DNA of 53,791 nucleotides from Zetaproteobacteria bacterium CG1_02_55_237 (GTDB lineage Bacteria > Pseudomonadota > Zetaproteobacteria > Mariprofundales > Mariprofundaceae). The translations under genes and the position numbers were made by a program. Location of the stretch: assembly GCA_001871195.1 (NCBI GenBank), contig MNXA01000030.1, positions 1 to 53,791 of the forward strand. Direction: 5' to 3'. How positions within the stretch are numbered: the first letter of the stretch is position 1; the number at the start of each line of letters is the position of its first letter. This document shows, piece after piece, positions 7,302-18,123 of this stretch. Below the pieces are notes generated by a model that saw only the letters and a list, made by a program, of their open reading frames with translations, made no database searches and was not told where the DNA came from.

Positions 7302-8641
7302 ATCGCTGAGGCCTGATTGGATTTCTGTGCCTGAGCAAGCAGTTCGCGCTGCTTGTCCGAGGTCAGGGTAAATTTAAGAGAGCCGAGAAACAGGGTCAGG
7401 GCTTGCAGGGGCTGGCGCAGATCATGGCTGGCCGAGGCCAGAAAGCGTGATTTATCACGGTTGGCCTGATCGGCTTCCTCCTTGGCCTTGCGCAACTCCT
7501 CCGTGCGGGATCTCACGCGCTTCTCCAGCTCTTCATTGTTTCGGGCCAGGGCATCGTGAATCAATTTCCGTTCGCTGATATCAAACAGCACATTGAGCAG
7601 TGCATCCTCGCCGGAAAATTCAACAGGCTGCATGGAAAGAGCCATGGTGACCTTGCTGCCGTCCCGTTTATGTACCACCACTTCACGATTGGACAAGGAA
7701 CCTTGCCGCGCCACTTCACCCAACAGCGGCGCACTCGATTCAAGGTCCAGCTCCAGCAAGCTGAACAGGCTGTCCGGCGCTGCATCCTGCCACTGGAAGA
7801 AGCGCAGAGCCTCCTGGTTGACGAACAATATCTTCCCGTCTTTTTTACGACTCACCGCCACGGGCAAAGGAATCGATTCGACCAGCAAGTGGAAACGTTT
7901 TTCCTGTTCGGCCAGTGTATGACGTTGATCCTCAATAAGGGCAAAGCTGTGCTGGATTTCCCCCGTCATTGCATTGAAGCCGTCATGCAGGTCGGCGATC
8001 TCTTCATACTCCCCACCCTGTGTTATGCGCAGGTTGTAATCCTGTTCCAGGCCGACCTTACGCATCAGTCCGGCAAGATTCATGATGGGCGAGGCAATCT
8101 GCCGTTGCAGACGCAGGCTGATGAGGTATGCCAGCAACAGGCTAAGTATCATCGCCATCCCAACCACGATGCTGCCCGTGCGCATATTGTCGTACAGCAT
8201 GCGGAGATCAGACTCCACCATGGCTGTGCCGATAACGCTGCCTTTAAGCCGGATCGTCTGGTAGGCCAGCAGGTGCCCATTCTCTTCATAGCTGCCTTCG
8301 GCCCTCAGCACAGGCAGGTCTGCAATCTTGTTGCCGGCATGATAAGAGCTGAACAGGCGGCCATCGGCCGTGAACAGAGCGGTCTGAACGATCTCCGAGT
8401 CATGCTGGAATGTCGCCAGCATTTCCCTGGCCATCACCGGATCGGAAAAACTGATGGCCGGCCTGGCAACCGCAGCCAGCATATCCACATGACTCAACAG
8501 GTGTCGCTGCGATGCCTCTTTGGATGTCGTGGCATTGTGGATCATCCAGATCAATCCCATGCTCAAAACCACACAGCCGGCACCAAGGCCGATGAGCAGC
8601 TGCAGTCTGCGCCGTAAGGAAGATGGTCGCTTAAGCATCAT
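7286..8641 (-). CDS. Hybrid histidine kinase, sensor and DHp part, frameshifted at its end
   Basis: A 451-residue membrane sensor: helix 1 (about 13-33), a periplasmic sensor region of about 120 residues, helix 2 (156-175), HAMP (176-228), PAS (246-357), a coiled coil, and the DHp helix with phospho-acceptor H406 in ASASHDLRQPLQALTLF. The frame then leaves the conserved path after QAQKSNQ and ends 8 residues later. The proper continuation is in another frame (6354-7301). It starts with a 4-base overlap on the YfiR-like gene, so the two are translationally coupled. As assembled, the product lacks the ATP-binding and receiver domains. Confidence 0.85.
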   Translation of the reverse strand: MMLKRPSSLRRRLQLLIGLGAGCVVLSMGLIWMIHNATTSKEASQRHLLSHVDMLAAVARPAISFSDPVMAREMLATFQHDSEIVQTALFTADGRLFSSYHAGNKIADLPVLRAEGSYEENGHLLAYQTIRLKGSVIGTAMVESDLRMLYDNMRTGSIVVGMAMILSLLLAYLISLRLQRQIASPIMNLAGLMRKVGLEQDYNLRITQGGEYEEIADLHDGFNAMTGEIQHSFALIEDQRHTLAEQEKRFHLLVESIPLPVAVSRKKDGKILFVNQEALRFFQWQDAAPDSLFSLLELDLESSAPLLGEVARQGSLSNREVVVHKRDGSKVTMALSMQPVEFSGEDALLNVLFDISERKLIHDALARNNEELEKRVRSRTEELRKAKEEADQANRDKSRFLASASHDLRQPLQALTLFLGSLKFTLTSDKQRELLAQAQKSNQASAICLVP

Positions 8642-9195
8642 GGCTTGATACCAACCACTTCGCCGAGCTGCAGCAGCTGAGAGCTGATGTGTAGATTTGC
8701 TTTGCCCGCAACCGCCATATTGATGCGGAAGGTAAGCCGCCCCTTGCTGCGTTGAAGTTCAATCATGCCGCCCATATCTGCGAAGCCCGGCATGTCGGAG
8801 ATAGTCAGCAAGGGCTTGCCGGACCAGGCCGTCAGCAGCATACGAATCGATGATGCACTCATACTCCCGGCAACAAAGAATACGGCATCGCTATCCTGTG
8901 CGCAGACCATATCCCTACAATAGCTTACCAGCAGCTTGCTTTCCGCCGGGGATTTGGATGCCACTTCATCCAGGGCCGGGCCAAACGGGCTTCTTCCCAG
9001 TACAGCGAGTCGTGTCGCCATATGGGGTGTCGCCGTATGGTCTGCATTCCCCTCCGGCCAATTCGTATAGCGGGTGAAGTTGTAGACATACACAGCCATG
9101 AGCCGTTCCGCACGCGTACTCATGTTCCCATCGTTCGCCCAAGCCATACCAGGGGGAAGAATCAGAAACAGGAAAACCAGCAGAAGCTTACGCAT
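8638..9195 (-). CDS. YfiR-like periplasmic protein (DUF4154)
   Basis: A 185-residue exported protein with a signal peptide (cleavage near AWA-ND, residues 19-21) and the YfiR/DUF4154 pattern: AVYVYNFTRYTNWP near the start, RLAVLGRSPFG, and GKPLLTISDMPGFADMGGMIEL with a final FRINMAVAGKANLHISSQLLQL. In Pseudomonas YfiR is a periplasmic repressor of a signalling enzyme. Here it overlaps the hybrid kinase gene by 4 bases, so it probably modulates the periplasmic sensor domain of that kinase. Two cysteines (CRDMVC) are present, as in YfiR. ATG 9195 is preferred over TTG 9198. Confidence 0.85.
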   Translation of the reverse strand: MRKLLLVFLFLILPPGMAWANDGNMSTRAERLMAVYVYNFTRYTNWPEGNADHTATPHMATRLAVLGRSPFGPALDEVASKSPAESKLLVSYCRDMVCAQDSDAVFFVAGSMSASSIRMLLTAWSGKPLLTISDMPGFADMGGMIELQRSKGRLTFRINMAVAGKANLHISSQLLQLGEVVGIKP

Positions 9196-9424
9196 CAAAT
9201 TTCATGTCAGAACGGTTTCAAGGCTGTGCTGCACTGGCTTGCAGACTCAGAAGAGGCAAGGCAACGCAAAACATGTGTCCCAGACAAGCCCACAACCCCT
9301 CCTTCCTCAACCATTAGGAAAAATAATGCTCGCACAACCATGCGGGAGGTCAAGCCGGCGAAAGTTAAATGCCTTAACTAAAGTCATGAATGCGTTTACA
9401 GTTTGAGCTCATGGATTCGAGCTT

Positions 9425-10036
9425 ATGAAAATCCTGATTGCTGACGATCATGCCCTGTTTCGTAACGGGCTGCGCAGCTTTCTGCTTGGCATAGATCTGG
9501 CAACACTGGCGATTGAGGCAGAAGACCTCGATACTGCACTGGCCTGTCTGGACGAGCATCAGGACATTGACCTTGTTCTGACTGATTTGAGCATGCCCGG
9601 CATGCAGGGGGCACAGGGCGTGTCCTGCCTGGTACAAAAGGCTGCTCCGGCACCGGTTGCCGTGATATCGGCAAGCGAAGAAAGCTGCATGATGCGGGAA
9701 GTGATTGCGGCCGGTGCAGCAGGATGTATCTCGAAAGCTGCAAGCCCTGATGTTCTGCTGCATGCGCTGCATGTGATACTCGCCGGCGGCATTTATCTAC
9801 CCAGTCGTTCCTTGCTTGTCGCCAACGAAGAGTCCGGTGACACCCGGCTCTCTGCACGCCAAATGAGCATTCTAAAGCTGCTCGCCGAGGGCATGTCCAA
9901 CAAGGAGGTCGCCCGTGAACTTGGCGTGACCGAAGGCACGGTTAAACAACATTTGATAGCCATTTATGCATGCCTTGGCGTCAACAGCAGAACCCGGGCG
10001 ATTGTCACTGCGCAAAAGATGGGCCTGCTGGACTAG
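9425..10036 (+). CDS. LuxR/NarL-type response regulator
   Basis: A 203-residue two-domain regulator. The receiver domain has the acidic pair in IADDH (residues 6-8), the phospho-acceptor aspartate in LTDLSMPG (D54 region), a conserved S/T in AVISAS and a lysine in CISKAAS. The C-terminal LuxR helix-turn-helix is LSARQMSILKLLAEGMSNKE with TEGTVKQH as the recognition helix. It is transcribed divergently from the YfiR-like/kinase genes and converges on the TonB receptor gene, overlapping its 3' end by 4 bases. It is the natural output partner of the adjacent hybrid kinase, and the receptor gene is a likely target. Confidence 0.9.
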   Translation: MKILIADDHALFRNGLRSFLLGIDLATLAIEAEDLDTALACLDEHQDIDLVLTDLSMPGMQGAQGVSCLVQKAAPAPVAVISASEESCMMREVIAAGAAGCISKAASPDVLLHALHVILAGGIYLPSRSLLVANEESGDTRLSARQMSILKLLAEGMSNKEVARELGVTEGTVKQHLIAIYACLGVNSRTRAIVTAQKMGLLD

Positions 10037-12081
10037 TTGTAGGTATATGTCGCACTAAGATAGTAACGCTGCTGTATTGAGCTCGCATATCCGATGATAC
10101 TGTCGGTATTGCTCTGATATGAAGCTTGCAGCATATCCTGTCCGACCAGACTGATTTCCAGATTCTCAACCGGACGCCAGCCCAGACGCATATCCAATCG
10201 ATGATAGCCATGAATATCCCCTTCCCGGAACGGGCCGGTAAAATAAAGGTTTGCATCGAACTCAAATCCCCTTACCGGCCCCAGGCCGGCCCCTAGATGA
10301 AATCGATTGGCAGGATCCTGTGCTTTTACCGAGAGTACCGTCCACTTCGTTTCATTATCCTTGACCGGGTAATCATCATAAAGCTGATGCAGGTAGGTGT
10401 ATGATCCTTTCAGCGTCATCCACTCCCACGGCTTGTAACGGAAATTGGCCTCAACGCCATCCGCCTTGCCGTTCAATACATTGGTCAGATATTCAGGAAT
10501 GACCCCTGCAAGCACATAAGGATTGGTTGCGCTGCGATCCTGCCAGGTGTCGAGAACCCCTTTATAGAAAATCCTGAATGTTGTGACCTCCACCAGGCTC
10601 TCCTCAGTTGGCCGCAGGCGGGCGCCCATTTCATATGAGGTAACCCTTTCGCTTTTGGCCCTGCCATCCCCGACCTGTTTTAAAATCTTGCCGCCAGTGG
10701 ATCTCAGGGCCCAACGCAATCCGTTTTCCATATCATTGGGGGTGCGCACCGCCTGGGAGGCAGAAGTCCAGACTGCCCATCTGTCATCCCCGACGATTGC
10801 TCTCACGCTGGGTTGAGACTCCCAACTGGTAAAAGAATTACGCTCTACTTTCACGCCGCCGTTGATGCGCAGTAAATCATCAAGAAAGCGCACCTCATCA
10901 TTGATAAAAAACGATGCCAGATGGGTGGTTCTGTTGGGCAGGGAAAACTGCGGAGTATTATCGTTGCGGGATCGCATGAAACGCACATTGCTGCCCACCG
11001 AAATATCCTGCCCCATCACCCCCGCGAAATCGAACTGCATATCGGCATCGTAGGTGTTCTTCTCCTCACGCATCATCTGCCGGTGTAATTTATACTGATC
11101 GAAAAAAAGCTGCCCCTTGAACAACACACCATGAGCCACCTCCTTTTCCATATGGAATACGAGATTCTTGCCGCTGTAACTATTTTTGTGCGTGTACTCC
11201 GCCAGGTTGTTCACAACCACCGTCGGCATCCAGTACATGGAGGAACCGGCATGCACCTGATAGGCATCGCCATGCAGGCTGATTTTGGTCACGGCATCCG
11301 TACCCCAATCCAGACGAAAGCCCTGCTGATTCACCTGTCTGGAATCCGGCATATCCCTGTTCGGCAGATAGCCCCAACTCGTCTTGTGGCTGACCAGGGG
11401 GGTCAATCCGCCATCACGCGTTTCCTTCATGGCGTAAACCCTGTAGTCCGCATTTCCGATACTTGAACTATAACTGATGTTACCAAAGCCCCTGTCTTCG
11501 GTACCGCCACCACCGCTGATACGCAAGCCGGGTTTTCCTCCCGCCTTTTTGGTCTTGATGTTGATCACGCCATTCACGGCATTGGAACCCCAGATCGCGC
11601 CACCGGGTCCGCGCACAATCTCGATGCGATCAATATCTTCCAGCGGATAATTCTGGGTTACCCACCAGACACCCGAAAAAGTAGTGGTATAGATTGGCCG
11701 ACCGTCCACCATCACCAGCAAAAGATCAGTGAAAAAATCAGTTTGGCCCCGAATGCCGATCTGATATTCGTTCATATTCGATTGCGACACCTGCAAGCCG
11801 GGAGCAAGCCTTAATGCCTCCGGAATGCTTCTTGCGCCGGAGCGCCGAATATCGTCACTGCTGATGACAAACACGGCACCGGCAGTCGACATGTATTTTT
11901 GTTCGCGCTTGGAAAGGGTTGTCACCTTCACATTGACGAGGTCCTCGATCTTCATGGTAAGCAGCTCATCCACAGACATGTGGTCAGCAGCCATAGCTGG
12001 CGCGGCGGCAGCCGCAATGATTAGAAGTATGAATGTGAGTGCGTGCCTCCAGCACAACTCACTGTAGCTAAGCAATGACAT
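10033..12081 (-). CDS. TonB-dependent receptor
   Basis: A 682-residue outer-membrane receptor importing an unknown ligand with energy from TonB. After a signal peptide ending near AMAADH comes a segment typical of receptors found with YfiR proteins (VDELLTMKIEDLVNVKVTTL, a possible TonB box region). It is followed by the plug domain (AGAVFVISSDDIRRSG, IPEALRLAPGLQV, VMVDGRPIY, IDRIEIVRGPGGAIWGSNAV) and a barrel ending in an aromatic-rich strand (YYLSATYTYN). ATG 12081 has GGAGGGG just upstream; the ORF can be opened to TTG 12093. Its neighbours suggest ligand arrival is coupled to the YfiR/kinase/regulator pathway. No siderophore or B12 genes lie near to hint at the substrate. Confidence 0.9.
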   Translation of the reverse strand: MSLLSYSELCWRHALTFILLIIAAAAAPAMAADHMSVDELLTMKIEDLVNVKVTTLSKREQKYMSTAGAVFVISSDDIRRSGARSIPEALRLAPGLQVSQSNMNEYQIGIRGQTDFFTDLLLVMVDGRPIYTTTFSGVWWVTQNYPLEDIDRIEIVRGPGGAIWGSNAVNGVINIKTKKAGGKPGLRISGGGGTEDRGFGNISYSSSIGNADYRVYAMKETRDGGLTPLVSHKTSWGYLPNRDMPDSRQVNQQGFRLDWGTDAVTKISLHGDAYQVHAGSSMYWMPTVVVNNLAEYTHKNSYSGKNLVFHMEKEVAHGVLFKGQLFFDQYKLHRQMMREEKNTYDADMQFDFAGVMGQDISVGSNVRFMRSRNDNTPQFSLPNRTTHLASFFINDEVRFLDDLLRINGGVKVERNSFTSWESQPSVRAIVGDDRWAVWTSASQAVRTPNDMENGLRWALRSTGGKILKQVGDGRAKSERVTSYEMGARLRPTEESLVEVTTFRIFYKGVLDTWQDRSATNPYVLAGVIPEYLTNVLNGKADGVEANFRYKPWEWMTLKGSYTYLHQLYDDYPVKDNETKWTVLSVKAQDPANRFHLGAGLGPVRGFEFDANLYFTGPFREGDIHGYHRLDMRLGWRPVENLEISLVGQDMLQASYQSNTDSIIGYASSIQQRYYLSATYTYN

Positions 12082-12288
12082 CACCCCTCCCAAGAGTGTG
12101 GCAGGACTTTCTGGCTATGGCTTCCTGCTGGAATTCAGATGATGCTCTTGGGTCTATCAAAGAGTGAAACCCCGGATCGCCAGCCGGTTGCAGCATACAA
12201 CATCACAGGCGGCGTTCCAACCAAACATGTCTGTGCCTGCTGCCCCATTGATTTTTAGGCTTGAAAGCAAACCGTCCACCGCCTCACC

Positions 12289-14747: not shown

Positions 14748-15413
14748 TCAGCCGCTGATCCCCTGCTTCTCCACCCATCTGCATTCGTCAAAGATGGGAC
14801 AGAGATGACATTTGGGCTTGCGCGCCGTGCATACATAGCGGCCGTGCAACACCAGCCAGTGGTGTGCATGACGCAGGAACTTTTTCGGAATAGCTGCCAG
14901 CAGCCCCTTCTCGACAGCCAACGGCGTTTTGCCCGGAGCCAGCCCCGTGCGATTGCCCACGCGGAAGATATGCGTATCCACAGCTATCGTCGGCTCACCG
15001 AACAGCACATTAAGCACAACATTGGCGGTTTTGCGGCCCACGCCGGGCAGCTTCTCCAGCGCTTCGCGCTTGTCCGGCACCTCGCCAGCATACTCGCCCA
15101 CTAAAAGCTGGCAGGCTCCGATAATGTTTTTCGCCTTGCTGTTGTACAGGCCGATGCTGGAGATGTATTGCTTCAAGCCGGCCTCTCCCAAATCGAGGAT
15201 GGCCTGCGGCGTATTGGCGATGGGGAATAATTTGGCGGTGGCTTTATTCACACCGACATCGGTGGCCTGCGCCGAGAGAATCACGGCGCACAATAATTCA
15301 AACGGGGTGTGGTATTGCAGCTCGGTGACCGGCTCGGAATCAGCAGCCTGAAGTTTTTCGAAAAGGCGGGTGACATGCGCCCGCGGCATGGGCCTGATAC
15401 TACTTGAGCTCAT
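14748..15413 (-). CDS. nth: Endonuclease III
   Basis: A 221-residue base-excision-repair glycosylase/AP lyase acting on oxidised pyrimidines. The helix-hairpin-helix (LPGVGRKTANVVL) carries the catalytic lysine, and VDTHIFRVGNR carries the catalytic aspartate. The C-terminal 4Fe-4S cluster motif C-x6-C-x2-C-x5-C is complete (C195, C202, C205, C211). Length is close to the E. coli enzyme. It sits 11 bases after the PilP-domain gene in the same direction, so it may be co-transcribed with it. Confidence 0.95.
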   Translation of the reverse strand: MSSSSIRPMPRAHVTRLFEKLQAADSEPVTELQYHTPFELLCAVILSAQATDVGVNKATAKLFPIANTPQAILDLGEAGLKQYISSIGLYNSKAKNIIGACQLLVGEYAGEVPDKREALEKLPGVGRKTANVVLNVLFGEPTIAVDTHIFRVGNRTGLAPGKTPLAVEKGLLAAIPKKFLRHAHHWLVLHGRYVCTARKPKCHLCPIFDECRWVEKQGISG

Positions 15414-15424
15414 GCCTGAAAAAT

Positions 15425-16975
15425 TTACTGATTCACTTCGTTAAGGGTCAGCACAGCCTTGCGTTTAACGATTTCCCCAGTCGCGGTGAATTCATCTTCC
15501 ATGATCTCCACGCTACGAGCGGTGATGTTTTCGATACGTCCATTGTCACGACCGATATAACTGCCGGCGCGCACCACATAGCCTTTACCCTCAGGATCCT
15601 CAACCATAGCCGCCTTGTTAGAGCCCATCTGCATGATGGCGACCAACCTCAACGCACCCAGATCAAATGCCTCCAGTGGTTCTGGGTCATGATCAGCCCC
15701 CGAGCCACGATGCTGTTCCATACGCTGTTTGCTCTGCTGATCCAGCACAGTCAGATAGGACTCAAACGGATCGCGCATCTTGGCTATATCCAGCTCCGGG
15801 GCCTTCACAAGATGCGCATTGCTCTCCGGGATTTGCTCGTCTTCAGAAACACCCGACTGCGCAGCGGTAACAGCTGTATTCTTTGCTACAGCTACAACTT
15901 TATCAGCCGGTTTTGCGCCTTCCCGTTTAGCAACTTCCGACCTGACAACCGGAGCCAGCTTGACTGCGGGAGTCGTTTTTGGAGATGTTGATTGAGGCGC
16001 CTGACTTATGGCCCTGGCAGGCTCATTCTCCACCGTCGGTGGAGCCAATGCCACGGCAAGCGATGGCGCCAGAGCTAAAAGCCCGACCAGCGCCAGATAA
16101 AGAACCCATTGTTTACGATCAGCCATGCCCGCAGGCTGCCACTTGGGAGTTCCGCCGTCATGTGCCATTTTCTGCTCGACATAGAAAAAGAAGCTGTAGG
16201 CCATCATCAGAACCGAGATCAACACTTCCAGCAGAAGTCCGCCGACAATCAGAATGCCGAATGGAAGCCATGCGGCCGAGCCCATCCCAAACAGCATCGA
16301 CATCGGATCTGCTGCCGGGCCACCTGCCGCAACCGCACTGTTGGCCATCGCGCTCATCTGCTGCGTAACACCAGACAGGCCTGTTAGCCAGGATATCCCA
16401 ACAAGTATCAGCATCAGCACCACGAAAATCAGTGCCAGAAACAGTGCATTGCCCAGCATTCTGAGGACAAAACCGCTGGAAAGTTGCCAGCTTCGCTTGA
16501 TTGCCTGCCATGGCCCGACATCCTCCATAGCTACCACACCAGCCAACGTATAAAGGCGCAAGGAAAACCACCAGATAACAAGCATGCCAATAAACGAGAC
16601 CAGGGGGTGAATCTGACCAAGCAGAGAAACAGCCAGCCCAAGCGGCGCAAAAATCAGCATAACGAGAAGCATGGCATTACCCATCACAGGCAGCCTTCCC
16701 AGACCACCACGCAAGGTTGTTTTCAGCGGCGGCGATTCGTCTGTAGACATGCAGTGCGCAAATGCCGCCATCAGGACCTGAATCATCCAAGAAACGAAAA
16801 GCAAATAGCCCACAACCATGACGAACACAATCAATGCAGGCGCAACCGGGGCCAAAATACCGCAAATGATGCCCAAGACTAAAACAACCAAACCGACGAC
16901 AAGCTGCACCATGATCGTACGACCGAACAACTTGATGCTCCAGACCAATCGGGAAAACAACGTCGCATCCCACAT
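15425..16975 (-). CDS. Polytopic membrane protein fused to a PilP-like domain
   Basis: A 516-residue protein in two parts. Residues 1-315 contain about seven hydrophobic helices and a segment (GPWQAIKRSWQLSSGFVLRM) like the YciC/GPDPase membrane-domain families. A low-complexity Pro/Ala/Lys linker (about 316-398) follows. The last 118 residues begin with MRDPFESYL and read LRLVAIMQMGSNKAAMVEDP, YVVRAGSYIGRDNGRIENI and EIVKRKAVLTL. That is the order of PilP, the periplasmic type IV pilus lipoprotein that links PilNO to the PilQ secretin. PilP is normally a separate lipoprotein. No pilMNOQ genes lie nearby. The start at 16975 has a GGGAG ribosome site. Confidence 0.7.
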   Translation of the reverse strand: MWDATLFSRLVWSIKLFGRTIMVQLVVGLVVLVLGIICGILAPVAPALIVFVMVVGYLLFVSWMIQVLMAAFAHCMSTDESPPLKTTLRGGLGRLPVMGNAMLLVMLIFAPLGLAVSLLGQIHPLVSFIGMLVIWWFSLRLYTLAGVVAMEDVGPWQAIKRSWQLSSGFVLRMLGNALFLALIFVVLMLILVGISWLTGLSGVTQQMSAMANSAVAAGGPAADPMSMLFGMGSAAWLPFGILIVGGLLLEVLISVLMMAYSFFFYVEQKMAHDGGTPKWQPAGMADRKQWVLYLALVGLLALAPSLAVALAPPTVENEPARAISQAPQSTSPKTTPAVKLAPVVRSEVAKREGAKPADKVVAVAKNTAVTAAQSGVSEDEQIPESNAHLVKAPELDIAKMRDPFESYLTVLDQQSKQRMEQHRGSGADHDPEPLEAFDLGALRLVAIMQMGSNKAAMVEDPEGKGYVVRAGSYIGRDNGRIENITARSVEIMEDEFTATGEIVKRKAVLTLNEVNQ

Positions 16976-17163
16976 CGTTACATACTCCCTGTTTAAGACG
17001 CCCTAACTCTGGACCCCCGCCTTACCGAAACGGGCAGGACAAGTCCCATCCACTCTCATTTGCAACTTCTAGCTTATCCTTCGCACCATCAACAGCTTTA
17101 GAATGGGCCAGTAATAAGAAAACGTCAAACACTCAACAATCGTGGCGCGGGGAAACGGCGGAC

Positions 17164-17982
17164 TTAAAAGCGGATGAAACCGCCGAGAAAAGGTCCGGAA
17201 ACAACGGTATTAAGCAGCACACCGGAGCGATCCAGCTTCAAATCAATCAGCCGGTAGCCGGCGTACACACCCATTGTTGGCAGCGGTGAAAATTCGACCT
17301 GCAACTCGCTATCGAGAAAGTGATTACCGGCAAAACCAATATATCCTGCACGTCCGGTCAGGCCGACCAAATCGGAAACCCCCACGCGACCACGCGCACC
17401 GAGGGTAGGGATGGGCAGCGTGGTGGACACGGACTGCGTCACGCCAGTAGTCCTGTCCTGTATGCTTGATGTTGCATGCACCAGCTTGACCGCAGCCTCA
17501 ACACCCAACTGAACACGGCTGGGGAGATCATCCATGTTTAATAGATAATAGGTCAGCGATGCATCGAACACATCAGCCTGCAAACGGGCATGCACCGCAT
17601 CGCCTGCTGCAAACGTCCGGCCATTATACTGCAGCGCAGAGCCGAGCACGCCATCACCACTGAATCTAAGCGGAAAATAATTCAGTGCAGCGCGAACATC
17701 GCCTACTTGCAGCGCCGCTTCAACGGTCATCTGATTGCTGCGCCCAAGGTGCACGGATGAATCGACATTCACCGGGGTGGCAGCAAGCCCGCCCGCTGCC
17801 GCGCCAAAACTACCGCGCGCATCGAGGCTCATGTAACCGGCCTTGAGCATCACCGTCTCATCGGCATGCGCCTTAACGGAAACCAGCAGGTGCACCAAAA
17901 CGGCTATTGCGATCACAAAACCCCGCCACAACAATGTCATGGTGGACTCATTTACCGAGTGGCTTCGCCATACCAATGTCAT
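17164..17982 (-). CDS. Outer-membrane beta-barrel protein, function unknown
   Basis: A 272-residue exported protein with alternating hydrophobic strands and a C-terminal phenylalanine (PFLGGFIRF), the mark of outer-membrane barrels assembled by Bam. ATG 17982 has the strong ribosome site GGAGG. A second ATG at 17940 begins a near copy of the first residues (MTLVWR, then MTLLWRG) and leads straight into the signal peptide (ending near KAHADE), so the true start is uncertain. I do not recognise the family. The gene stands alone, with an unfeatured 188-base gap downstream of it. Confidence 0.65.
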   Translation of the reverse strand: MTLVWRSHSVNESTMTLLWRGFVIAIAVLVHLLVSVKAHADETVMLKAGYMSLDARGSFGAAAGGLAATPVNVDSSVHLGRSNQMTVEAALQVGDVRAALNYFPLRFSGDGVLGSALQYNGRTFAAGDAVHARLQADVFDASLTYYLLNMDDLPSRVQLGVEAAVKLVHATSSIQDRTTGVTQSVSTTLPIPTLGARGRVGVSDLVGLTGRAGYIGFAGNHFLDSELQVEFSPLPTMGVYAGYRLIDLKLDRSGVLLNTVVSGPFLGGFIRF

Positions 17983-18123
17983 GCCTGCCTCCTGCGTCGC
18001 GAGACTCCGGGAAAAACTCCGAAGCACTCCTGATCTGGCGCCAACTATGTGAGTAACAGGGGCCCTGTGCCGTGACTGCTGTCACACCCTGTTTTTGCCG
18101 GTTCATTGCGTTATATTCGCCAC

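Follow-up and report, generated by a model that had tools for sequence, protein, structure and literature searches.

The window analyzed here is the whole 53,791-nucleotide stretch of DNA, which comes from a 2.33-Mb genome of the iron-oxidizer type of Zetaproteobacteria (54 contigs; 99.99% complete) that we searched family by family. On the minus strand, a 516-amino-acid open reading frame (ORF) with an ATG start carries a polytopic membrane domain and a PilP domain in a single protein. The features of this locus are as follows.

14748..15413, minus strand: nth (endonuclease III), the class-wide conserved neighbor of pilP
15425..16975, minus strand: fusion ORF, 516 amino acids, consisting of the polytopic membrane domain, a seventh transmembrane helix (TM7), a linker, and PilP
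15443..15679, minus strand: PilP beta-domain, residues 433 to 511 (Pfam and structure), predicted secretin-binding module
15743..15817, minus strand: class-conserved segment HxxKAPxxDxxxxRDPFxSYL, residues 387 to 411 (alignment), candidate PilN/PilO-binding stretch
15818..16039, minus strand: disordered A/P/V-rich periplasmic linker, residues ~313 to 386 (composition and low pLDDT)
16040..16126, minus strand: TM7, residues 284 to 312, predicted to run in to out by the positive-inside rule
16127..16975, minus strand: six-TM domain, residues 1 to 283, weakly GPDPase_memb-like (PF10110, below cutoff)
16985..16990, minus strand: Shine-Dalgarno sequence AGGGAG, 9 nt 5′ of the fusion ORF ATG
17164..18027, minus strand: upstream OMP-like gene with no Pfam match, directly 5′ of pilP in those same-genus relatives that have no membrane domain

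Elsewhere in the window, a cluster at 8638 to 12093 contains a small signal-peptide protein, a response regulator-like gene, and a TonB-dependent receptor-like gene.

PilP is the usual lipid-anchored bridge from the inner membrane to the pilus secretin. A sequence-only reading of the ORF had described a seven-helix membrane domain, a low-complexity linker, and a C-terminal PilP-type region, all of which we recovered. PF04351 matched residues 390 to 511 with 67.3 bits (curated cutoff, 25.6; E = 1.8e-18), and residues 399 to 516 alone, the part for which that reading had suggested an HMM search, gave 69 bits. The structure prediction that it had also suggested returned the PilP beta-sandwich rather than a different fold, with AlphaFold pLDDT values of about 96 to 98 across the beta-domain. 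All 10 top Foldseek matches to the AlphaFold model were PilP chains (TMt up to 0.88), and the significant PDB matches of a 22-sequence profile were likewise PilP chains only (2LC4, 2Y4X, 3JC8, 4AV2, and 2IVW; best, 1.4e-26). The domain is 73% identical to the PilP of a same-genus genome (G002, locus L073), to which it is sister in the tree (support, 100/98), and it is orthologous to other zetaproteobacterial PilPs. No lipobox was found in the fusion protein. A lipobox is typical of model PilPs, but it is no requirement for PF04351 homologues, since nearly all zetaproteobacterial PilPs are without one, and we did not count it as defining. Location in a pilMNOPQ operon is also typical and not defining; the fusion gene lies outside such an operon.

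Seven hydrophobic helices are predicted in the N-terminal part of the fusion ORF (residues 23 to 41, 47 to 65, 101 to 119, 131 to 149, 177 to 195, 241 to 259, and 291 to 309). Lysine and arginine residues are found at the N terminus and in the TM2-3, TM4-5, and TM6-7 loops, a placement from which the C terminus is predicted to be periplasmic, and the periplasm is the required location of a PilP domain. The linker is rich in A, V, P, S, and T, with pLDDT values below 50 at residues 311 to 381. The six-TM domain is rare: among 120 relatives and ~400 phylum genomes, relatives of it were found only in G038 and G040 (31 to 37% identity) and, remotely, in G175 as a stand-alone 276-amino-acid protein. 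Like the fusion, the G038 and G040 proteins have the same six TM helices, TM7, and a linker, which is proline rich, but they end in a TPR-like domain instead of PilP. The membrane domain stands before a TPR-like periplasmic domain at L040 (997 to 2298) and L041 (1489 to 2796), in another zetaproteobacterial family.

We think that anchoring is the main role of the membrane domain, which could have an independent function. An alternative account, compatible with the PilP identity and in our view unlikely, makes it a functional addition that regulates pilus assembly by sensing lipids or signals or by recruiting the protein to a site on the membrane, with anchoring incidental. The domain keeps an ED...P...S.GF motif, and its position before a different periplasmic domain in G038 and G040 marks it as a portable N-terminal module. 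However, no catalytic or ligand motif was recognized in it, and its PF10110 (GPDPase_memb) score of 20.9 to 22 bits falls below the curated cutoff of 29.6, for which reason we call it GPDPase_memb-like only. We consider doubtful a further proposal, in which the domain, by sensing the bilayer or positioning the alignment complex, would control the docking of the secretin and make PilP an active, membrane-responsive element; if it is true, PilP can lose its anchor and later recover one in the form of a multihelix regulatory domain.

Three genomes of the same genus (G001, G002, and G003) have no membrane domain at this place; there a stand-alone pilP comes directly after the OMP-like gene, and nth after pilP. 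DNA homology between the fusion locus and G002 ends 184 nt before the fusion ATG and restarts at residue 387, where the conserved HxxKAP segment begins. The 11 bases AAACAGGGAGT stand a short way ahead of the start codon in both the fusion gene and G002 pilP, which suggests, from sequence comparison, that the membrane domain was inserted behind the old pilP ribosome-binding site. Inserted in frame after the OMP-like gene and before pilP, the membrane domain would have taken the place of the PilP signal peptide. TM7 could derive from the former signal peptide of PilP, but it aligns with the TM7 of the G038/G040 family.

This alignment also bears on whether the fusion could be an artifact of assembly or sequencing, or two genes in one frame with PilP made from about Met284 and residues 284 to 312 as its signal peptide. 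The stand-alone PilPs of the same-genus genomes have a cleavable-looking signal peptide, residues 284 to 312 could pass as one, and the fusion was seen in only one genome (the source genome, G000) among the matches listed. These points are outweighed, in our judgment, and the explanation is improbable: a single unbroken coding frame crosses the 76-codon linker, and the annotated frame scores highest by codon statistics in all four ORF segments, linker included. The long start has a good Shine-Dalgarno sequence, whereas none was found at the internal methionines (residues 257, 258, 270, and 284), and in the G038/G040 proteins TM7 is likewise followed by a linker and then a periplasmic domain. 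Some PilP could still be made from Met284 as a minor product or be freed by proteolysis.

No other polytopic, nonpilus partner of PilP was found among the matches listed from ~200 PilP-bearing genomes searched, and most of the long PilP frames among these matches were checked as possible fusions. Loci L035, L101 to L106, and L111 were rejected as upstream-frame read-through before an ordinary pilP start; L015, L023, and L112 were rejected as membrane fusions, having only moderate nonmembrane N-terminal extensions behind read-through. G037 has two PilP copies (L112, 983 to 2356; L015, 114 to 1808), and its N-terminal extension has Cys-containing repeats with an ENACLC motif, present twice in L112.

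Throughout the Zetaproteobacteria, pilP has left pilMNOQ and adjoins nth, and its product is nearly always without a lipobox, a pattern seen at loci L072 to L090 and L048 to L071. Each of the 24 zetaproteobacterial pil operons examined has pilQ directly after pilO, while the six outgroup genomes examined all have the order pilO-pilP-pilQ. The pilP gene adjoins nth, nearly always directly upstream of it, at 17 of 18 extended loci and 21 of 22 short loci; the two sets overlap, and G023 and one short G037 contig depart from the pattern. A simple pattern test found no lipobox in 32 of 33 zetaproteobacterial PilPs (the remaining one is a doubtful match), most of which have an ordinary signal peptide, and a lipobox in at least 19 of 25 outgroup PilPs. 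Our literature search found no published description of pilP relocation or lipobox loss in Zetaproteobacteria. The PilP of G004 (L075, 6785 to 7687) has at its N terminus a long low-complexity stretch rich in Q, T, and D.

The source genome encodes one PilP, which is the fusion ORF; a separate pilP, for which the sequence-only reading had advised a search, was found nowhere else in the genome. Another contig (C51, locus L006) carries pilM, pilN, pilO, and pilQ consecutively; pilQ begins 15 nt past the end of pilO, and no pilP separates the two. This PilQ has AMIN, N0/STN, and secretin domains (480 bits to TIGR02515), with N0 at about residues 385 to 451, and three PilT-family ATPases in the genome scored above cutoff. 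A second full secretin, on contig C8, lies inside a type II secretion system (T2SS) cluster with its own GspC (L007:3866-4723; T2SSC and PDZ domains). A 312-amino-acid secretin-like protein on contig C28 (L005, 1375 to 2313) gave a weak third secretin match and is not a clear channel. The fusion ORF was rejected as a GspC, since it has no T2SSC (PF11356) match and the genome has a separate GspC.

Given one PilP, a pilMNOQ set without pilP, and a T2SS with its own GspC, the simplest reading is that the fused PilP fills the PilP gap in the type IVa pilus machine. No pilMNOQ lies beside the fusion ORF, as had been noted from the sequence, and this is ordinary for a class in which pilP lies outside the pil operon throughout. 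Sequence, fold, topology, and synteny support the proposal of a PilP tethered to the inner membrane; the accompanying proposal, that it works with some other secretin or machine, finds no support. A PilP module repurposed in this way, for example for the T2SS, would fit a gene not beside pilMNOQ and the common fold of T2SS HR and type IV pilus PilP domains (PMC3169554), but it is highly improbable in a genome whose T2SS has its own GspC, whose intact PilMNOQ has no other PilP, and whose separation of pilP from the pil operon is class-wide.

The reading that we prefer, with a probability of roughly 80%, is that the fusion ORF is a genuine type IVa PilP, re-anchored by a polytopic domain and bridging PilN/PilO to PilQ. 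The seven helices would hold the protein in the inner membrane, and the retained KAP...RDPF segment would bind PilN/PilO, a role inferred from P. aeruginosa and N. meningitidis PilP (PMC5805733, PMC3441751). The flexible linker would give the beta-domain access to the PilQ N0 domain. The fusion would thus connect the alignment complex of the inner membrane with the secretin in the manner of a lipidated PilP, since the KAP...RDPF segment and the beta-domain are kept and the linker is comparable in length to the 60 to 70 unstructured residues of N. meningitidis PilP. Relatives seem to function with no anchor at all, so anchoring need not be what was selected. The chief limitation is that a single genome shows the fusion.

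In comparison with known systems, the fusion shares with N. meningitidis and P. aeruginosa PilP (2IVW, 2LC4, and 2Y4X) the sequence and fold of the beta-domain, an RDPF-type segment, and a flexible linker, and like a model PilP it is the sole PilP of its genome, alongside a pilMNOQ set. Model PilPs, however, are lipoproteins encoded in pilMNOPQ, whereas the fusion is encoded beside nth and has a seven-TM N-terminal domain. GspC (PF11356, HR domain) has a similar layout of TM anchor, linker, and PilP-fold domain that binds the secretin N0, a binding that the fusion may share by analogy, but GspC has one TM helix and a PDZ domain, and the fusion has no T2SSC match. PilW of Thermus, which stands in place of PilP (PMC3724824), is, like the fusion, a TM-anchored periplasmic link in a type IV pilus machine without a lipidated PilP; its periplasmic part is nonhomologous, and it is encoded between pilO and pilQ, unlike the fusion. 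The fusion is also not of a wholly new kind, since one-helix PilO-PilP gene fusions have been published (Pseudomonas putida Q88CU9; PMC3169554), and we found five single-ORF PilO-PilP fusions in other phylum genomes (L107, L108, L109, L110, and L115). These too join PilP covalently to an inner-membrane protein, but their partner is PilO, a pilus protein with a single helix that is encoded in the same operon, while the fusion ORF pairs PilP with an unrelated polytopic domain and lies at a distant locus.

A covalent PilP fusion is thus already known, and the polytopic nonpilus partner is what is new. As the only PilP of its genome, the fusion very probably forms a new type of link between the inner membrane and the pilus channel. 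It adds a covalent constraint on the position of PilP, as the PilO-PilP fusions did for stoichiometry. The class moved pilP and nearly all of its members dropped the lipid anchor, and one species gained a seven-helix anchor, which makes the need of PilP for membrane anchoring directly testable.
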